Source: a virus
Strand: one strand, 5' to 3'
Virus record (IMG/VR): IMGVR_UViG_3300028024_000171
Location: 1-45,775 of that record
DNA: 45,775 nucleotides
Position numbers and translations under genes: made by a program. The notes under the pieces were generated by a model. The model was not told the DNA's origin. It searched no databases and saw only the letters and a list, made by a program, of their open reading frames with translations. Of the stretch, positions 2,526-22,535 are shown in pieces. Within the stretch, counting starts at the first letter, position 1. Every line of letters starts with the position of its first letter.

Positions 2526-3104
2526 CTATCGTAAGCAATCCTTAAAATATTCTTTTTTCATAATATATTGCTTATCGGCTATTGAACATAGCTTTGAAGT
2601 TTGCCCATCCATAACGGCAACGAGCGATAGCTTACCTATTGTTCGCAGTACTTCCAGCGTAGAGGAATAATCCGTATCTGCGCTCAATAGAATAACCGCA
2701 TCCAGCGAATTATTAAAAGCTTTCGTTAGCATATGTGTCGCAATATTAATGTCGGTGCCCTTCTCTTGTTTGACATAAGAAAGTGGGTCAGCGATATCTC
2801 GCTTTGCCCCAGGCGCATCACGAGAAACATATCTGCCCTTTATGACATCTAAAAAGGGTACATTTTGCCATCCTGACATCGAACGTTCAAAGCCCGCCCA
2901 GTATGTATCCCCCTTTAAGAAATCATCCGGCTCAGGGTAGCAGAGATATGTTTTTGTCAAAATCGAATTAGGGATCTCTTTCGTTAATTTGGCTGCCAGT
3001 TTTGCATAGTCTAGTCTCGGAAAAGGTTCCTTATATTTCGTGAAAAGATCTTTAAGAGCAATGTCGAAATTTAAGTAATCAATAAAAACCATTGTACGTA
3101 ACAT
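2526..3104 (-). CDS. NYN (PIN-like) domain protein, putative RNase
   Basis: 192 residues. The NYN domain of the PIN-like nuclease superfamily spans most of the protein: MVFIDYLNF with D9 and N12 near the N-terminus, EKGTDINIATHML with D118, and DAVILLSADTDYSS with D143 and D145. These acidic residues are the expected metal-binding set. Family members (LabA/YacP-like) are thought to cut or process RNA, so this is probably a small cytoplasmic ribonuclease. The ATG follows GGGGGAG by nine bases. The gene has its own promoter (3206-3233) and terminator (2499-2520) just beyond the phage late terminator, and its GC content is visibly lower than that of the phage structural genes. This fits a lysogeny-expressed accessory (moron) gene, or a host gene beside the prophage end. 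Confidence 0.8.
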   Translation of the reverse strand: MLRTMVFIDYLNFDIALKDLFTKYKEPFPRLDYAKLAAKLTKEIPNSILTKTYLCYPEPDDFLKGDTYWAGFERSMSGWQNVPFLDVIKGRYVSRDAPGAKRDIADPLSYVKQEKGTDINIATHMLTKAFNNSLDAVILLSADTDYSSTLEVLRTIGKLSLVAVMDGQTSKLCSIADKQYIMKKEYFKDCLR

Positions 3105-3752: not shown

Positions 3753-5819
3753 TTAGGCCTGCGCCTTACGCAGCAGATTTGAGATGCACCACCCCGTGAT
3801 GCCTTCCTTCTCGATCCGCGCCCAGCCCGCCTGCACCTCGTACAGGGTGCACTGCTCGCCGGCATTAAGCTTGCTGATCTTGTCGTACTCGGTGCCGGGG
3901 CCGCTCCGGATGTTGACGTAGTTGGCGCCGGTGTAGATGTACGTCTCGCCCCGGGGCTCTTCCGGCGCCGGTACGGTGGTCTGGCTGTTGTTGGCAAAGC
4001 CCAGCGCCGCCCAGGTGGCCGTGGTACAGATGGAGCCGGTCACGCCGATCTCCTTGTTGACGGCCGCCACAGCTGCGGCGGTCTTGCTGCCGGGGATGCC
4101 GTCCGCCGTGAGCTTGGTGCCGCGCCTGAGATTGAGCGCGACCTGCAGAGCGCGCACGACCCACTCGTCAGCCCGCACGGTGCCCTCGGCCGTCTGCGCG
4201 ACGTCGGGCAGCGCCGGCAGCGCGAAGTCCTCCCGGAGCCGGATGATCGCGCACACCTTGCCGTCGCCGTAGTCCAAGGGCTTGCGGCAGCACTTGTCGG
4301 TGTTGTTGGCGATATGGATGATGTTCTTCCCGCCCACGTCGATGCTGCCGACGTGGGTAATCTTGCCCGGGCGTGTCGTGGCGCTGTTAAAGCACCAAAA
4401 TACGATGTCTCCGGCCTGCGCGCCATAGCTTTGCAGCAGCCCCCTGGGGCTGGGCAGCTTGCCGATCAGCGCCCGGCTGGCCGGCCAGACCAGGTCAAAG
4501 CCGGCGGCGTCTACCTCGCGGTAGGACGTGCGCAGCTCGTCGCCGGCGGCCGTCAGCAGCGGGTACCCGGCGGCGCCCCAGATCGCAGCGGTATAGCTGC
4601 TGCAATCCATCTTGCCGCCCGGCCAGATGTTGTTGCGGTAGTCCTGGCTGTAGCTGGTCCCCAACAGTGCCGCGGCGTTGGCCAGCACGGCGGCGACCAG
4701 CTTGTCCCTGCCGGTGCTCCCGGGCGCGGAGGGCGGCGCAGGCGCGACCGTGGATGCATCCAGCGCGGCCCAGGTCTTGGGGCCGACGATGCCGTCGACG
4801 GTGAGGCCGAGGGCCTCCTGGAACGCTTTGACGGCTGCCTCCGTCTTGGTGCCGAAATCCCCGTCGGTGCCCTGCGGGTCAAAGCCGTGTTTGAGCAGCA
4901 GAGTTTGCAGCTCCCGGACATCGTCGCCTGTCATACCCTTGCGCAGCGTGCGCCTTGTCACGATCGGTTCCTCCTTTCCCGGCAGCTCCACCGCCGCCGG
5001 CGTCTTGATATCCACCCATCCCCAGCCGTACAGCGGATCACGGCCGCCGTCGCCAAGGTCCAGCGTCATGAGCTTGAGTTGTGTATACACCCACGGCTCG
5101 GTGGGCCACTTACCGATGTGCTTTTTGTAGGCGGCCATGAGCAGCGCGATCTTGCATACCACGATCGGGCACGCAAAGCTCGTCCCACTCACCGAGGTGT
5201 GATAACCCAGCGTGGTGGGGTTGAGTACCATAACGCCGGCGCCCAGTTCCGCGAAGTCCACCTCGTTGTGGAGCGTGGAGAAATCAGCATGCCGGGCATC
5301 TTCGGTCAGCGCCGCGGCTGTGATCGGGCTCTCGAAGCCGCCCGGGTACAGGTTGGGCGTCTCGTGACCATCATTGCCCGCTGCCACCACCACGGGGACG
5401 TTGTAGGCAACCAGCGCATCAATCGCCGCCTGCATTCGCTTTATCTCCGGGTCAGCCAGGTTGCCAAGGCCCGAAAGCGACATGTTGACGATATGCTGAT
5501 GTGTGGTATCGGCCTTGACGATGGGCAGCAGCTTCTCCAGCCAGTCGATGATCGGACCGGTGGGGTCATTGACGCCATTCGGCAATACCCTGTAGGAGCA
5601 GACCTCAAGGCCCGGCACCTGCGCCAGGATCGACGCCACGCTGCGCCCATGGTCAGCGGTGGCCGTCAGGCCGTCCGGCGTGCCCGCCTTGACCCGGCCT
5701 TTAAGCGGGCCGAGCGGTGGGCAGCCGGTGTCGAAGAGATCAACAATAATGCCGTCGGCGGTGATGCCGGCGGCATTATAATCTTTGAGCATGCGCTCGT
5801 TCAGTTCTCGGATGTTCAA
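3753..5819 (-). CDS. multidomain lysin: subtilisin protease + PG-binding + NlpC/P60-like + SH3
   Basis: 688 residues, starting at TTG 5819 with GGAGG seven bases upstream and overlapping the previous stop. Domains in order: (a) residues about 20-275, a subtilisin-like S8 serine protease with Asp30 (LFDTG), His57 (ADHGRSVASIL), oxyanion Asn149 (VVAAGND) and nucleophile Ser214 (SGTSFACP), so the triad looks complete; (b) about 293-354, a PG_binding_1 domain (GDDVRELQTLLLKHGF, DGDFGTKTEAAVKAFQ); (c) about 372-530, an NlpC/P60-type domain with Cys406 (MDCSSYTAAIW) and His489 (ITHVGSI); (d) about 552-607, a second PG-binding-like repeat (DGIPGSKTAAAV); (e) about 627-686, a bacterial SH3 domain (NYVNIRSGPGTEYDKI). 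No signal peptide is seen, so release would depend on the adjacent holin. Clostridial phage endolysins are usually 250-400 residues and lack a protease. It should cleave peptidoglycan stem peptides; the protease substrate is unknown. Confidence 0.85.
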   Translation of the reverse strand: MNIRELNERMLKDYNAAGITADGIIVDLFDTGCPPLGPLKGRVKAGTPDGLTATADHGRSVASILAQVPGLEVCSYRVLPNGVNDPTGPIIDWLEKLLPIVKADTTHQHIVNMSLSGLGNLADPEIKRMQAAIDALVAYNVPVVVAAGNDGHETPNLYPGGFESPITAAALTEDARHADFSTLHNEVDFAELGAGVMVLNPTTLGYHTSVSGTSFACPIVVCKIALLMAAYKKHIGKWPTEPWVYTQLKLMTLDLGDGGRDPLYGWGWVDIKTPAAVELPGKEEPIVTRRTLRKGMTGDDVRELQTLLLKHGFDPQGTDGDFGTKTEAAVKAFQEALGLTVDGIVGPKTWAALDASTVAPAPPSAPGSTGRDKLVAAVLANAAALLGTSYSQDYRNNIWPGGKMDCSSYTAAIWGAAGYPLLTAAGDELRTSYREVDAAGFDLVWPASRALIGKLPSPRGLLQSYGAQAGDIVFWCFNSATTRPGKITHVGSIDVGGKNIIHIANNTDKCCRKPLDYGDGKVCAIIRLREDFALPALPDVAQTAEGTVRADEWVVRALQVALNLRRGTKLTADGIPGSKTAAAVAAVNKEIGVTGSICTTATWAALGFANNSQTTVPAPEEPRGETYIYTGANYVNIRSGPGTEYDKISKLNAGEQCTLYEVQAGWARIEKEGITGWCISNLLRKAQA

Positions 5820-6067
5820 GTGATCACCTCCAGTAGATAAAACGTACCGGTTTCCCGGTCATACCCCCATCCTTCAGGCGGCGTTGGCTCGATAAAGCGC
5901 GCGTCACCCTCGGCGGTCGGCTCGAATCCCCAGCCCTCGCGCACATAGTCCGGGGCCTCCACGAACTGGATATCCGGCGCGTAAAGGCCCTCTGTAGATT
6001 CGAGCGTAGGATGCTTTGCGGTCGCGTCCCAGTGGCAGAGGCCGTTAAAGATTTGCATGATTTTCAT
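5816..6067 (-). CDS. small protein between tail fibre and lysin
   Basis: 83 residues (MKIMQIFNGLCHWDATAKHP...), acidic and aromatic-rich (REGWGFEPTAEGDARFIEP, PEGWGYDRETGTFYLL). AGGAGGATGACGT precedes the ATG, and the end overlaps the TTG start of the lysin, so the two are translationally coupled. Short proteins at this place in siphophage operons are often minor tail or fibre-associated proteins, but I recognise no named family. Confidence 0.7.
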   Translation of the reverse strand: MKIMQIFNGLCHWDATAKHPTLESTEGLYAPDIQFVEAPDYVREGWGFEPTAEGDARFIEPTPPEGWGYDRETGTFYLLEVIT

Positions 6068-13874: not shown

Positions 13875-14519
13875 CTAAAGCCCCGACGCGTCGGGAGTAA
13901 CATCTGGGGCTTTATTGTCTTTGTAGCGTATAAAAAGACTTATGTTAAAATTATCCCCACTTAACAAGGCAATTATTTCTGTAGTTGCTGTATTCCATTT
14001 AGTATAATAAGCAAGGTGCCCGGCAGATACCGCCATACCATAATCACCTGGGGAATCCTTATACAAATCATCTTTCCAGATTTCATTATCCTCTGCCGGT
14101 TGCCCATACTTGGAGACCAAAGCCTCTTTAATGTTTTTATAATCGTCTACATAGTCAGTTTTGTTGGTGTGCTGTTGATCAAAAAAATAAACGCCAGAAC
14201 TAACTTTATCGCCATTATAAGTATACCCAAGGGTTACAGGAAATCCCATGATCTCAAGCCCATCATAATAATCTCCGTCAGATCCCACACGAGAAGGCTC
14301 TTTTCCCTCACTTGTTATTACTTCGTTGCGAGACATTCCCCACGTTATATTCCGAAAATCGGCATCGGGAATGGGTGTAGGTGCTGGAGTAGGTGTCGGC
14401 GCAGGAATAGGGGTGGGCGTCGGCGTAGCAGCGCCCATCGTCGCAACGGGCTTCGCCGCCGGCGCCGCGCAGCCAGCAAGCATTAAAACCACCAGAAGGG
14501 CCACAAGCAGCTTTTTCAT
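13875..14519 (-). CDS. lipoprotein, probable moron gene
   Basis: 214 residues. The N-terminus MKKLLVALLVVLMLAGCAAP is a lipoprotein signal with lipobox LAGC, so Cys17 should be lipidated and the protein anchored on the outer face of the cell membrane. A Pro/Thr linker follows (TPTPTPIPAPTPTPAPTP), then a globular domain starting NITWGMSRNEVITSEGKEPS, a pattern seen in several clostridial extracellular proteins of unknown function. Base composition is clearly AT-richer than in the tail genes around it, and it has its own downstream terminator. It overlaps the previous gene by four bases. Tail modules do not normally contain a lipoprotein; surface lipoproteins encoded by prophages often block superinfection, but that role is an inference here. 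Confidence 0.8.
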   Translation of the reverse strand: MKKLLVALLVVLMLAGCAAPAAKPVATMGAATPTPTPIPAPTPTPAPTPIPDADFRNITWGMSRNEVITSEGKEPSRVGSDGDYYDGLEIMGFPVTLGYTYNGDKVSSGVYFFDQQHTNKTDYVDDYKNIKEALVSKYGQPAEDNEIWKDDLYKDSPGDYGMAVSAGHLAYYTKWNTATTEIIALLSGDNFNISLFIRYKDNKAPDVTPDASGL

Positions 14520-15856
14520 CGGTCCATTCTCTCCTTATCTGTTCTCTCCCACTCAGCTTCCTGCTTCTTAGAAAAATATGCAACTGTAGTACAGCGGCAA
14601 TGGTCGCAAAAAGGCGGTAAATTGACCCCAACCTTCGCTTCCGAAACTTTGTATTTTTTACCCACGTGCTTTTTGCACGCCGGACAAGTTGATTCATCCC
14701 TCGTTGTCAAAATCTCGTATTTGGAAATCCCTCCCTCCTTATAGTCCTCAATATCTTCGTAGCTGTGCATTTCGGTCATGCAAGCACCTATATATTCATC
14801 TGTGCAACAGCTCAAGTCGTAGCCCGTTCCATTGAGGCGGCGCTCAAGCTTATTTCGGGCTTTTGTATACGGCATATCCAGCATATGGCAGCTAATTAAG
14901 CATCCCTTAACTAAAGCAGGTTCCGCATGGGCATTAAAAAACGATTCATAACTCTTTAATGCTGGTGTGCTCACTCCTTGTTGCACTTCGGAGTTCCAAT
15001 TTACCCCCAACCCTCTGGCCAATGGCTTTCGTGCTTCATAAGCAGCCATCAGCTTATGAGCATCTTGAAACCGCTGTAAAGAATTTAATCCTGTCATCTC
15101 ATCGAGTAAAGCATTGAACTCGACTTCTATGCGGATAGCATATTCGTCTAAAACTTTTCGCCCCTCCACCGTTACAGCATACAATTGAACGTCGCCTATT
15201 GTTTGATCTAAAATCCCGGGTTCACATGTCTCCCTAATTCGCTCGATTAATTCTTGCTTTTTCCCCGAAACCTTTTGCCCTGCTTTTTTCAGCACCGTTT
15301 TTAGATCGGAAACTGAATAGTAATCAAGAGCATTGTAGCCTTTTTGGATAGAAAGCAACTCATGCTTTAACAGTTTTTCTGCGCAGGCCTTGACGTTTCC
15401 GCCGGCGTATTGCGCGACAATATCTCCGTCGTGTTGTATGCTTACCTCTGTTTTATTAAGGCGTCTTAGCACCTCCAGATCAGCGTCAACAATTTTGTCA
15501 GAAATGAGGGGGGCGTCGGTGCCGATACCAACGGATTTATTATTTGGGGGCGCCTTAGGCTTAATTTGTGCTTGTAAATCCTCGATAGATTTACGCAGTC
15601 CTGGAATATCCGACGTATCCCATTTCAAAGCTTGCAGTTTGGCGTTTGCGGCATCTAAAGATCTTATTGCGGTTTCACATTTGCGACGTAGTAATTCTTC
15701 GTCATCTGTCCGCTTAAAAGCATCTATGACGGTCCTGCAAGCATTGGCACCATCGCGAATGGCATCGGAAATCTCCTGCTCGCACTTCGAGCAATATCCA
15801 TTGCTATTAAGTCTTAAAAATAATCCTTTTTGCTGGCAACCCCTGCATGTCGCCAT
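14516..15856 (-). CDS. zinc-ribbon / SAP / MuF-tail-like protein, probable moron gene
   Basis: 446 residues. Three parts can be seen: (a) an N-terminal zinc ribbon with CxxC pairs C4/C7 and C22/C25; (b) around residues 179-213, a SAP-like DNA-binding motif (SVSDLKTVLKKAGQKVSGKK); (c) a C-terminal segment around 379-428, YEILTTRDESTCPAC through CDHCRCTTVAYF with Cys391, 394, 417, 420 and 422. Part (c) closely resembles the zinc loop of the MuF head protein in this same prophage (YEILAALDERTCKIC through CRCTTIAHF). The gene is AT-richer than its neighbours and overlaps the lipoprotein gene. It is not a known tail component. The combination suggests a cargo protein that borrows a head-protein zinc module; its function is unknown. 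Confidence 0.7.
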   Translation of the reverse strand: MATCRGCQQKGLFLRLNSNGYCSKCEQEISDAIRDGANACRTVIDAFKRTDDEELLRRKCETAIRSLDAANAKLQALKWDTSDIPGLRKSIEDLQAQIKPKAPPNNKSVGIGTDAPLISDKIVDADLEVLRRLNKTEVSIQHDGDIVAQYAGGNVKACAEKLLKHELLSIQKGYNALDYYSVSDLKTVLKKAGQKVSGKKQELIERIRETCEPGILDQTIGDVQLYAVTVEGRKVLDEYAIRIEVEFNALLDEMTGLNSLQRFQDAHKLMAAYEARKPLARGLGVNWNSEVQQGVSTPALKSYESFFNAHAEPALVKGCLISCHMLDMPYTKARNKLERRLNGTGYDLSCCTDEYIGACMTEMHSYEDIEDYKEGGISKYEILTTRDESTCPACKKHVGKKYKVSEAKVGVNLPPFCDHCRCTTVAYFSKKQEAEWERTDKERMDR

Positions 15857-20408: not shown

Positions 20409-20622
20409 AGCCGATCATGTCGCCGCGTGCTTTAGCATCAGCTAAGGCCTTGCGCCCTTCATCGACCCAAGCTTTCAACTCCGGCGAAGCGTGCTCATAA
20501 ACAAAATCGTCAAGCGGCACATAGTTGTTATCGTCGATTTCCTTGTCCCATTTTTCAAACAGTACGGCGATTTCCCGTTCTATCGCCGGAGGGGCCTCGT
20601 TTGACATTCTAAAACAATTCAT
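20407..20622 (-). CDS. small acidic protein following the MuF gene, candidate immunity protein
   Basis: 71 residues (MNCFRMSNEAPPAIEREIAV...), rich in Glu and Asp (LFEKWDKEIDDNNYVPLDDF). Its ATG overlaps the MuF stop codon (ATGA), so translation is coupled, and AAGGAT lies upstream. It is immediately followed by two terminators, so it closes the MuF unit. It matches no head protein I know. Small acidic genes directly after MuF genes with toxic C-termini are often immunity genes; here that is an inference from position, size and charge. Confidence 0.6.
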   Translation of the reverse strand: MNCFRMSNEAPPAIEREIAVLFEKWDKEIDDNNYVPLDDFVYEHASPELKAWVDEGRKALADAKARGDMIG

Positions 20623-22535
20623 CGTGCTATCCTTTCCAGAAGGCCTTTGACCATCTCGTCAGCGAGGCGGTTTCCCTTATTGACCGCCTGCTTTTCGGCG
20701 GCATACGCCAGAATTTCGGCCGGGTCCTTTCCGACCCCATGCATAAAGTTTTGCGTTCCAACGATCTCGGACACCAGCCGATCCGTTTCTTTTGAGGTCG
20801 TCCGCAGCCCCAGATTCTTCAGCGCATCTTTGTAGATGCCCGCCGAAATATCGCGATTCTTGCTGTCAATGTAGTGCGTCATTTCGTGGACCGACGTTTG
20901 GAACGCCTCGGAGAGTTTATCATCGAGGTTGCCGTTGAACGCGATCGACCGCACGCCGTTCCGAATCCGAAATTCACCACAAGTCCCCGCCGGCAGTTTT
21001 TCAACTCCAACGGTAAACGGGATGTTCTTTATGCCGTACTGCTCCTGAGCATATGCCAACCCCTCGGCCAGCTCTTTCTGCGTCTCCAGTTTGAGCTTTG
21101 AGAAACTGGCATCGATCGGCGATTCCTCGTCACCCCACTGATCGACATACCTGAAATGGTTTGCGACCTCCTCGCTGCTTTGGAGCTTCTGGATTGCGTC
21201 GGTTTGCAGGTAACGGTACTTTTCCGCTCCGGATTCTGTCAGCATACGGGTCCGCGTGACGTCACCGGGTACACCCTTATTATACCCCGAAACGCCCGTT
21301 TTGTCTAGCTTCTCGCGGTATTTTGCTTTCAATTCCTGCCAGTCGTCCCCGCCGCCGTACTTCATAGCCTGGAATTTATCAAGCGACTGCGTGACAGTTT
21401 TCTTACCAAGCGCGTCGGTGTATCTCTTCATCTGCCGGGCGTCCGCAAAGTGGTTTTGGTACGCTTTGACCTTGGTCGCGTAGGCCTTATCCGCTTTGAC
21501 GTACTGATCGAACCAGTCGTTGTATTTGGTATCGGCGGGCAGCATAACGCCCTTGCCCTCGGCGTCCCGGGCAAAACGCACGCTGGGGCCTGTGTCGCCC
21601 CACTCATCCAATTGCTCCTGCGAGAAGTGGGCTATAGTGGTACAACGGCATCTTGCGTGGTAGGGCGGGTAGTTTTTCGCGACCACCGCCTTATCGGTAT
21701 CGTGCACCTCGCCGTCATGCCCGCCGCAGATCTTACAGGTGCGCTCGTCCAGCGCCGCGAGGATCTCGTATTGGGTAATGCCGTCATCTGCATAGCTTTT
21801 GAGCTCTGCCGATTCTACCGCGTAAGCCGTCTCCGTACGCACCAGCCGCTCGGCGTTGTACACGCTGGCCCCGGTGGCGTCCGTGATGGCTTTGGTCATC
21901 TGCCGGATGTCCTTGCCCTGGATCAGCCCCTGCGTGATGGTAGCCTGCAGCGTGGAGGTCATGCGATCGGCGTTGTCCCATATCCGCTTGGAGTAATCCG
22001 CGCCACTCCACGGGTAGGATACCGCCTTGGCCACTGCCCCCGGGGAGAGCATCTCCAGGGTGCTGCCCATCCCGACGCCCATCTGCATATCGTAGGCGGC
22101 GCGGTAGTAGGTGTCGGTGTAAGTGTCGCTGAGCAGCTGCGTGACGGCATCCTGCCCCTTCTGGGCGAGCTCCGCAGCATTGACCTTGACAGCCGTCTGG
22201 ACAGTCTCCAGGCGGGTGACGCGGCTGCGCGTAGAAAGGGTGTCCAGCTCCCGCAGCAGCTCCTCGTCGCCGGTCTTGTTGATACGGTCGACATAGTCAG
22301 CCAGAGACATGCGCCATTCCCGGTAATCGGACTGGTCAATGTACTTGATCGCATCGGCGTAGGACAGGCCGTGCTCGTCGCCGTACCGCTCGTACAGGCG
22401 GCGGATCTCGCCCTGTATCTCCTTGCTGGCTTTCGCGTAGGCCGTCTGCAGCTGGGCGAGGGTTTCGTCGGCCGACGCATGCGCGCGTGTCATGCGGGCC
22501 TCAGCACGCTGCTTCCAGTACGCTTCGGACTTCAT
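20619..22535 (-). CDS. MuF-type minor head protein with C-terminal zincin-like domain
   Basis: 638 residues; ordinary SPP1 gp7/MuF proteins are about 300-500. Residues 1 to about 305 are the MuF head domain: helices, TQGLIQGKDIRQMTKAI, the ASVYNAERLVRTETAYAVES motif, and a zinc loop with Cys267, Cys270, His273, His293, Cys296 and Cys298 (TCKIC ... CRCTTIAHF). Residues about 330-500 form a linker or second domain. Residues about 500-638 carry a metalloprotease-like signature: FQTSVHEMTHYIDSKN with His550, Glu551 and His554, and a plausible third ligand Glu607 in DPAEILAYAAE. MuF proteins fused to toxin domains are known as phage-borne polymorphic toxins; MuF is packaged in the head and may be delivered with DNA. 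It overlaps the portal gene and the small downstream gene by four bases each. Confidence 0.85.
   Translation of the reverse strand: MKSEAYWKQRAEARMTRAHASADETLAQLQTAYAKASKEIQGEIRRLYERYGDEHGLSYADAIKYIDQSDYREWRMSLADYVDRINKTGDEELLRELDTLSTRSRVTRLETVQTAVKVNAAELAQKGQDAVTQLLSDTYTDTYYRAAYDMQMGVGMGSTLEMLSPGAVAKAVSYPWSGADYSKRIWDNADRMTSTLQATITQGLIQGKDIRQMTKAITDATGASVYNAERLVRTETAYAVESAELKSYADDGITQYEILAALDERTCKICGGHDGEVHDTDKAVVAKNYPPYHARCRCTTIAHFSQEQLDEWGDTGPSVRFARDAEGKGVMLPADTKYNDWFDQYVKADKAYATKVKAYQNHFADARQMKRYTDALGKKTVTQSLDKFQAMKYGGGDDWQELKAKYREKLDKTGVSGYNKGVPGDVTRTRMLTESGAEKYRYLQTDAIQKLQSSEEVANHFRYVDQWGDEESPIDASFSKLKLETQKELAEGLAYAQEQYGIKNIPFTVGVEKLPAGTCGEFRIRNGVRSIAFNGNLDDKLSEAFQTSVHEMTHYIDSKNRDISAGIYKDALKNLGLRTTSKETDRLVSEIVGTQNFMHGVGKDPAEILAYAAEKQAVNKGNRLADEMVKGLLERIAR

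Follow-up and report, generated by a model that had tools for sequence, protein, structure and literature searches.

Gene organization

We analyzed a stretch of 45,775 nucleotides (hereafter the window; positions 1 to 45,775 of the IMG/VR record IMGVR_UViG_3300028024_000171), which appears to be a whole temperate tailed phage with integrase, terminase, portal, capsid and tail genes present. A gene on its minus strand encodes a 688-residue protein, here termed the S8-lysin, in which a subtilisin-like (S8) protease domain precedes the wall-binding and wall-cutting domains of a lysin (Table 1). Upstream are the tail genes (tape measure, Dit and Gp37-like), and a holin gene follows directly. No other lysis gene was recognized among the 28 window proteins scanned, and the 83-residue product of the overlapping gene immediately upstream matched no family in Pfam or phrog searches. 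TTG was assigned as the correct start codon because it is served by a GGAGG site and because the resulting N-terminus, MNIRELN, matches the ATG-started MNIKELN of a relative on an independent contig (locus L041). Elsewhere in the window, an NYN-domain protein (2526-3104, minus strand; E 2e-12) is encoded after the holin and is a possible RNase or toxin-like cargo, and two proteins carry Phage_Mu_F domains (14516-15856 and 20619-22535, both minus strand), the copy near the tail genes having a SAP domain too.

Table 1. Coordinates of features at the S8-lysin locus, in window positions
Feature	Position	Strand	Basis or detail
S8-lysin gene, 688 aa: S8, PG_binding_1, NlpC/P60-like, weak PG-binding repeat, SH3	3753..5819	-	ORF list, Pfam
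Shine-Dalgarno GGAGG of full-length product	5827..5831	-	TTG start at 5817-5819
83-aa gene directly upstream, overlapping the lysin start	5816..6067	-	ORF list
Holin (Phage_holin_4_1), 132 aa	3328..3726	-	Pfam PF05105 E 6e-42; phrog_199 holin
N-terminal subtilisin (S8) domain, residues 1-275	4995..5819	-	Pfam S8, fold match
Catalytic Asp30, codon GAC	5730..5732	-	
Catalytic His57, codon CAT	5649..5651	-	
Oxyanion-hole Asn149, codon AAT	5373..5375	-	
Catalytic Ser214, codon AGC	5178..5180	-	
PG_binding_1, residues 297-353	4761..4931	-	Pfam E 4e-25
NlpC/P60-like domain, about residues 366-536	4212..4724	-	Cys406 (4602-4604), His489 (4353-4355)
Second PG-binding-like repeat, about residues 548-608	3996..4178	-	Weak, E 0.04
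C-terminal SH3_3, residues 634-682	3774..3920	-	Pfam E 2e-11
Internal Shine-Dalgarno GAAAGGAGG	4970..4978	-	8 nt before internal start
Proposed internal in-frame start GTG, codon 287	4959..4961	-	Predicted
Proposed short product, protease-free endolysin, 402 aa (PGB-NlpC-PGB-SH3)	3753..4961	-	Predicted

Subtilisin domain

The sequence-only reading had proposed a 688-residue protein beginning with a complete subtilisin domain, and this was confirmed by Pfam, by a check of the codons (all on the minus strand) and by fold. Pfam placed residues 45-267 in Peptidase_S8 (E 9e-16), so the assignment holds under profile search, and Asp30, His57, Asn149 and Ser214 fall within DTG, DHG, AGND and GTSF motifs at the positions expected for S8. 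A point of caution is that HGR follows the catalytic His in the window protein, whereas nearly all relatives have HGT. The structure model of the domain (pLDDT 78, pTM 0.86) returned subtilisins as its best PDB matches (TM 0.77, E 2e-16). With the profile, the fold, the Asp-His-Ser triad and the oxyanion Asn all present, the domain is a member of the S8 family that is predicted to be proteolytic.

The top PDB match was 1suc, entitled "calcium-independent subtilisin by design", and the alignment accounts for this match by the absence of the calcium-site-A loop from S8-lysin domains. The family profile aligns without gaps to BPN' variants from which that loop was deleted (1suc, 1gnv and 1dui), an intracellular subtilisin has 9 residues more than the profile there, and the catalytic His is separated from the next conserved Pro by 13-14 residues in all eleven S8 domains of the family described below. 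The domain, about 270 residues long, begins within about 22 residues of Met1; the window protein has no signal peptide or N-terminal hydrophobic segment, no pro-domain and no match to an inhibitor or pro-domain family. Engineered subtilisin variants lacking the calcium site provide a basis for folding without pro-domain and without calcium, and by analogy the S8-lysin protease may fold in this manner. Glu186 and Asp188 are conserved in the ten members with intact catalytic residues and line up with Glu195 and Asp197 of the weak calcium site B of BPN', so extracellular calcium could still matter for the domain.

Wall-binding and hydrolase domains

The domain order of the sequence-only reading stood for S8, PG-binding and SH3, each of which was recognized by Pfam, and less firmly for the remainder, since the second PG-binding-like repeat is faint and the NlpC/P60 match of the window protein is weak by itself (PF00877, residues 360-540, E 0.012, under the Pfam cut-off). 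The corresponding region of L041 exceeds that cut-off (24.2 bits vs 23), and Cys406 and His489 are identical in the two proteins. NlpC/P60 enzymes were also the best PDB profile matches of the region, but with E-values of only 0.12-0.49. Because the full-length structure model (mean pLDDT 62) is poor outside the S8, PG-binding and SH3 domains, the assignment of an NlpC fold rests on sequence. Together, a wall-hydrolase domain (recognized via L041), wall-binding domains, an adjacent holin and the lack of a signal peptide identify the window protein as a predicted endolysin, and the earlier claims of an adjacent holin and of an N-terminus without a secretion signal were both upheld.

A family of protease-carrying lysins

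Scans of IMG/VR and of genomes recovered ten further distinct phage or prophage loci with an S8 domain in or beside a lysin, which makes eleven with the window; the scans were pattern-based and miss divergent members, so this count is a lower bound. One additional locus (L143) was left out of the count, its protein being identical to that of L140. The eleven S8 domains are monophyletic (support 99/95) and cluster apart from host (Clostridia) and phage subtilases in the tree. L041 (S8-PGB-NlpC-PGB), which lies on an independent contig, is co-linear with the window protein and 49% identical to it over 617 residues; together with the other loci it rules out mis-assembly or a chance fusion. L002, L136 and L138 have the order S8-PGB-NlpC-like (the last part of L138 had no Pfam match), L003, L139 and L140 have S8-NlpC-PGB, and L040 has S8-Amidase_2-PGB-SH3, so that the wall enzyme joined to S8 differs between loci, being NlpC/P60 or, in L040, Amidase_2. 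The two remaining loci, L004 and L137, are split. Among bacterial genomes, strong matches were found in 2/103 genomes of the family of Eubacteriales bacterium OttesenSCG-928-K08, and larger samples gave no further genome with a strong match.

Several genes near family members or in phages with more distant S8 proteins were recorded. The gene before the S8-lysin of L002 (4344-4748) encodes a carbohydrate-binding module (CBM_5_12, E 1e-22), and similar sequences lie ahead of the S8 lysins of L136 (1166-1567) and L137 (466-867). Just upstream of the L139 gene is a reverse-transcriptase-like ORF (461-1654) with a YVDDM motif, possibly part of a diversity-generating retroelement. At L144 (5962-8931), a lysis-like cassette contains a stand-alone, degenerate and distant S8 protein with a copper amine oxidase N-domain, followed by a 116-aa gene, a small protein with 2 TM segments and then two proteins assigned from sequence only, one an M23-like peptidase and the other NlpC/P60-like.

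Asp, His, Asn and Ser are all kept in 10/11 members. The exception is L041 (4888-6711), the nearest full-length relative of the window protein, in which the catalytic Asp is replaced by Gly (VVGTG) and the Pfam S8 match is lost while His, Asn and Ser remain; its S8 domain is evidently a pseudoprotease or decaying, and proteolysis therefore cannot be essential everywhere. A role of the S8 fold chiefly in binding or as a scaffold, with catalysis dispensable, would agree with the retention of the whole domain in L041 and with L144, whose S8 protein lacks the Asp and the HGT context. We regard this as very unlikely, given the conservation of all four residues in the other members and the comparison of the L136 and L137 copies (93% identical), whose dN/dS of 0.16 indicates that the domain is maintained by selection, L041 being the exception. 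The dN/dS between the window and L041 was near saturation and was left out.

Protease-free relatives and split genes

Lysins related to two of the members were found without S8. Five amidase-SH3 lysins (L128-L132) are relatives of L040, with amidase identities to it of 62-64% (L128, L129, L130 and L132) or 44% (L131), and L042 is an NlpC-PGB lysin 40% identical to the C-terminal part of L003. No S8 gene was present in the surrounding DNA fetched for these six loci, and with such relatives the protease is an optional module. Directly upstream of the lysins of L042 (3270-4010) and L004 (7099-7932) are genes whose products look secreted. Each product has a signal peptide and, at its C-terminus, an IPKTG/LPQTG-like sequence with a hydrophobic stretch after it, and is possibly a phage-encoded wall-anchored surface protein.

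The split loci separate protease from hydrolase. L004 has an S8-SH3 gene and then a separate NlpC-like-SH3 gene; in L137, a 104-aa gene and a small TM gene lie between the S8-PGB-SH3 gene and the NlpC-SH3 gene that comes after it. The contigs L136 and L137 both belong to genome G447, which thus holds a fused version alongside a split one. The sequence-only reading had taken two separate genes in other isolates as evidence against a true fusion. Such splits do occur, but as genuinely separate genes in which the protease keeps wall-binding domains of its own (SH3 in L004, PGB and SH3 in L137), which supports the partnership rather than refuting it and points to action at the wall.

The same loci bear on the possibility that the protease acts in the cytoplasm or at the membrane before lysis, setting its timing by cleavage of a host or phage protein (the holin or an antiholin, an autolysin regulator or a defence protein). 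The lack of a signal peptide fits such a role, as do the stand-alone S8 proteases of other phages and the similarity of the domain to intracellular and calcium-site-deleted subtilisins, which suggests that its folding and activity in the cytoplasm could proceed in the absence of a pro-domain. Since this would leave unexplained the link of S8 to wall-binding domains, which persists even where the hydrolase is encoded separately, we consider it quite unlikely.

The protein could instead be part of the tail and bore through surface proteins and peptidoglycan as the phage enters. A gene located just after the tail genes would suit this role, in which proteolysis would ease the way through an S-layer from the outer side. 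However, the holin gene directly follows that of the S8-lysin, no second lysis gene was recognized among the window proteins scanned, several relatives have a small TM protein next to the S8-lysin gene or next but one from it, and the S8-free relatives are ordinary-looking endolysins. A virion-associated lysin is thus highly improbable.

Proposed internal translation start

At the boundary between protease and lysin, the window gene contains an in-frame GTG preceded by GAAAGGAGG, a Shine-Dalgarno match longer than the GGAGG that serves the TTG start. L041 has AAAGGAGG before a GTG at the matching place, and L003, L040, L136, L137, L138 and L139 have in-frame starts with Shine-Dalgarno runs of 5-8 nucleotides at the S8/lysin boundary. 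The internal site is weak in L002 and L140 and absent from L004, but the latter already consists of two genes. Runs of ≥7 nucleotides with an internal start at this boundary were counted in 6/11 genes. Synonymous-codon shuffles (n=1000) gave a mean of 1.5 genes with such a run (maximum 5), and other segments of the same genes (2000 draws) gave at most 1. Runs of 5 nucleotides are common in the synonymous shuffles (mean 5.7/11), so only the longer runs are informative; L136 and L137 are moreover close relatives and not independent, which leaves five lineages, not six, with a run of ≥7. In L040 the internal Met coincides exactly with the residue at which the free amidase lysin L128 begins; in L003 it is offset by two residues from the start Met of L042.

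Since most members have an in-frame start with a strong Shine-Dalgarno where protease and lysin meet, the gene probably makes two proteins, which in the window would be an ordinary endolysin of 402 residues and a longer form armed with the protease. The simplest history would be that a protease was joined to the front of a lysin and the ribosome-binding site of that lysin continued to be used. Endolysins that exist in two forms through in-frame internal starts are both known and common (PMC9430671), which makes the two-start reading credible. As in those cases, an internal start with a Shine-Dalgarno at a domain boundary predicts a shorter second product. There, the short product is often the C-terminal binding part, whereas the predicted short form of the S8-lysin is a complete endolysin to which the long form adds a protease. 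The sequence-only reading was right about the gene but missed the probable second product from codon 287, the family with its exchanged wall enzymes, split forms and protease-free relatives, and the inactivated protease of L041.

Self-processing is an alternative in which S8 would cut the linker of its own chain, or act in trans on a partner lysin, and so free or activate the peptidoglycan hydrolase. CspB, which activates SleC in Clostridium spores, is a precedent for a subtilisin activating a peptidoglycan hydrolase, C. difficile uses Csp pseudoproteases as well (PMC6636752), and the poorly conserved linker after S8 is a possible cleavage site. Against this, the pro-domain and jelly-roll insert of Csp are absent from S8-lysins, and the split S8 proteins have wall-binding domains of their own. 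Related lysins exist without S8 and the same gene apparently encodes a protease-free lysin, so no activation is needed. Obligatory self-processing is thereby disfavored, and self-processing in general appears unlikely to us.

Comparison with known systems

Modular endolysins of Gram-positive phages (NlpC/P60 or Amidase_2 with PG_binding or SH3) likewise combine a wall enzyme with binding domains, lack a signal peptide and have a holin beside them, and L042 and L128-L132 look like ordinary members of this class; the S8-lysin differs from it by its N-terminal subtilisin. The Csp subtilisins and SleC resemble it in that a subtilisin-like domain, in some cases a pseudoprotease, is partnered with a peptidoglycan hydrolase, but they are separate, spore-specific proteins with a pro-domain and a jelly-roll insert, and no architecture in common was found (PMC6636752). 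Intracellular subtilisins and calcium-independent BPN' variants, also without a secretion signal, are the best sequence and fold matches to the S8 domain, at about 25% identity, and are not joined to wall enzymes as the S8-lysin domain is. The prophage endolysin LysBT1 also has an unusual part, one related to the protein surface layer, but that part is an S-layer homology domain, which binds and is no protease; a comparable obstacle was inferred in that study, in which the S-layer would keep LysBT1 from the peptidoglycan of B. cereus, where EDTA was needed (PMC12285257).

Nothing among 50,697 phage records covers the S8-lysin protein, and the best S8 matches in them (about 26-36% identical) are stand-alone proteases. 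We found no literature on S8 or subtilisin endolysins, and neither subtilisin nor PF00082 is mentioned in the main text of the endolysin surveys and studies consulted (prior mention elsewhere is possible). Within that scope the earlier statement that no well-described phage lysin of this arrangement is known was supported: the modular endolysin is a known kind of protein, and the S8 catalytic module, here combined with a two-start layout, appears to be new.

Other candidates were rejected. The subtilases of SP-15, Goe3, vB_BcoS-136, a Moorella phage and Jimmer1 are only distant, stand-alone and not fused, and those placed in the tree (Goe3, vB_BcoS-136 and Jimmer1) fall outside the S8-lysin clade, as do the other Clostridia subtilases (L011-L039), none of which is fused to a lysin. 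Phage S8 genes at L149/L150 and L145/L151 have no lysis linkage, and the MT836450 match is a large, secreted-looking bacterial protein. The matches in G1134 and G1213 are not of phage origin but S8 genes of the chromosome, flanked by asparaginase-like and glutaminyl-tRNA synthetase-like genes. In two Bacillota genomes (L163, 5310-6389; L164, 1948-3030), chromosomal S8 genes with no obvious signal peptide have asparaginase-like and glutaminyl-tRNA synthetase-like neighbors; of the non-lysin relatives in the phylum sample, these scored best.

Proposed role

We propose that the locus is a phage endolysin gene with an add-on protease and two starts, whose holin-released products include a wall-held subtilisin that digests wall or surface proteins, and we give this reading as a whole a probability of about 0.5. 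The sequence itself shows the domains and catalytic residues, the family and its modularity, the split forms, the linkage to a holin and the conserved internal start with its Shine-Dalgarno. Translation from codon 287 would yield the protease-free 402-residue endolysin, which would cut peptidoglycan, and translation from the upstream TTG would yield the same endolysin with an N-terminal subtilisin. Both forms would accumulate in the cytoplasm and exit when the membrane is opened by the holin. Kept at the wall by the PG-binding and SH3 domains, the subtilisin would next digest wall-associated or surface proteins (putatively S-layer or wall-anchored proteins) that would otherwise keep the envelope together or virions from leaving. 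In this sequence of events we infer the use of both starts, the release, the proteolytic activity and the class of substrate.

The most likely role of the domain is thus that of a wall-anchored protease opening protein layers during lysis, with a putative substrate class. Of the functions offered in the sequence-only reading, the opening of surface proteins fits best, and processing of the lysin as an obligatory step fared poorly in view of the S8-free relatives and the apparent S8-free product. More tentatively, and possibly rather than probably, these loci may represent a class of phages with a dedicated wall-anchored lysis protease, made as the alternative long form of an endolysin through a plug-in N-terminal module that moves between lysins. 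Such a protease would open a protein layer and in this serve an end similar to that of spanins in Gram-negative phages.

The S8-lysins would offer a clear evolutionary case in which a protease was fused ahead of a lysin and the lysin's ribosome-binding site was apparently retained within the fused gene. Endolysins are under development as antibacterials, and S8 would be an additional catalytic module for them. To our knowledge, lysis of Gram-positive hosts is usually described as the work of a holin and a peptidoglycan hydrolase only. If a conserved, modular, wall-targeted protease is indeed part of the process, these phages must cut protein layers too in order to exit.
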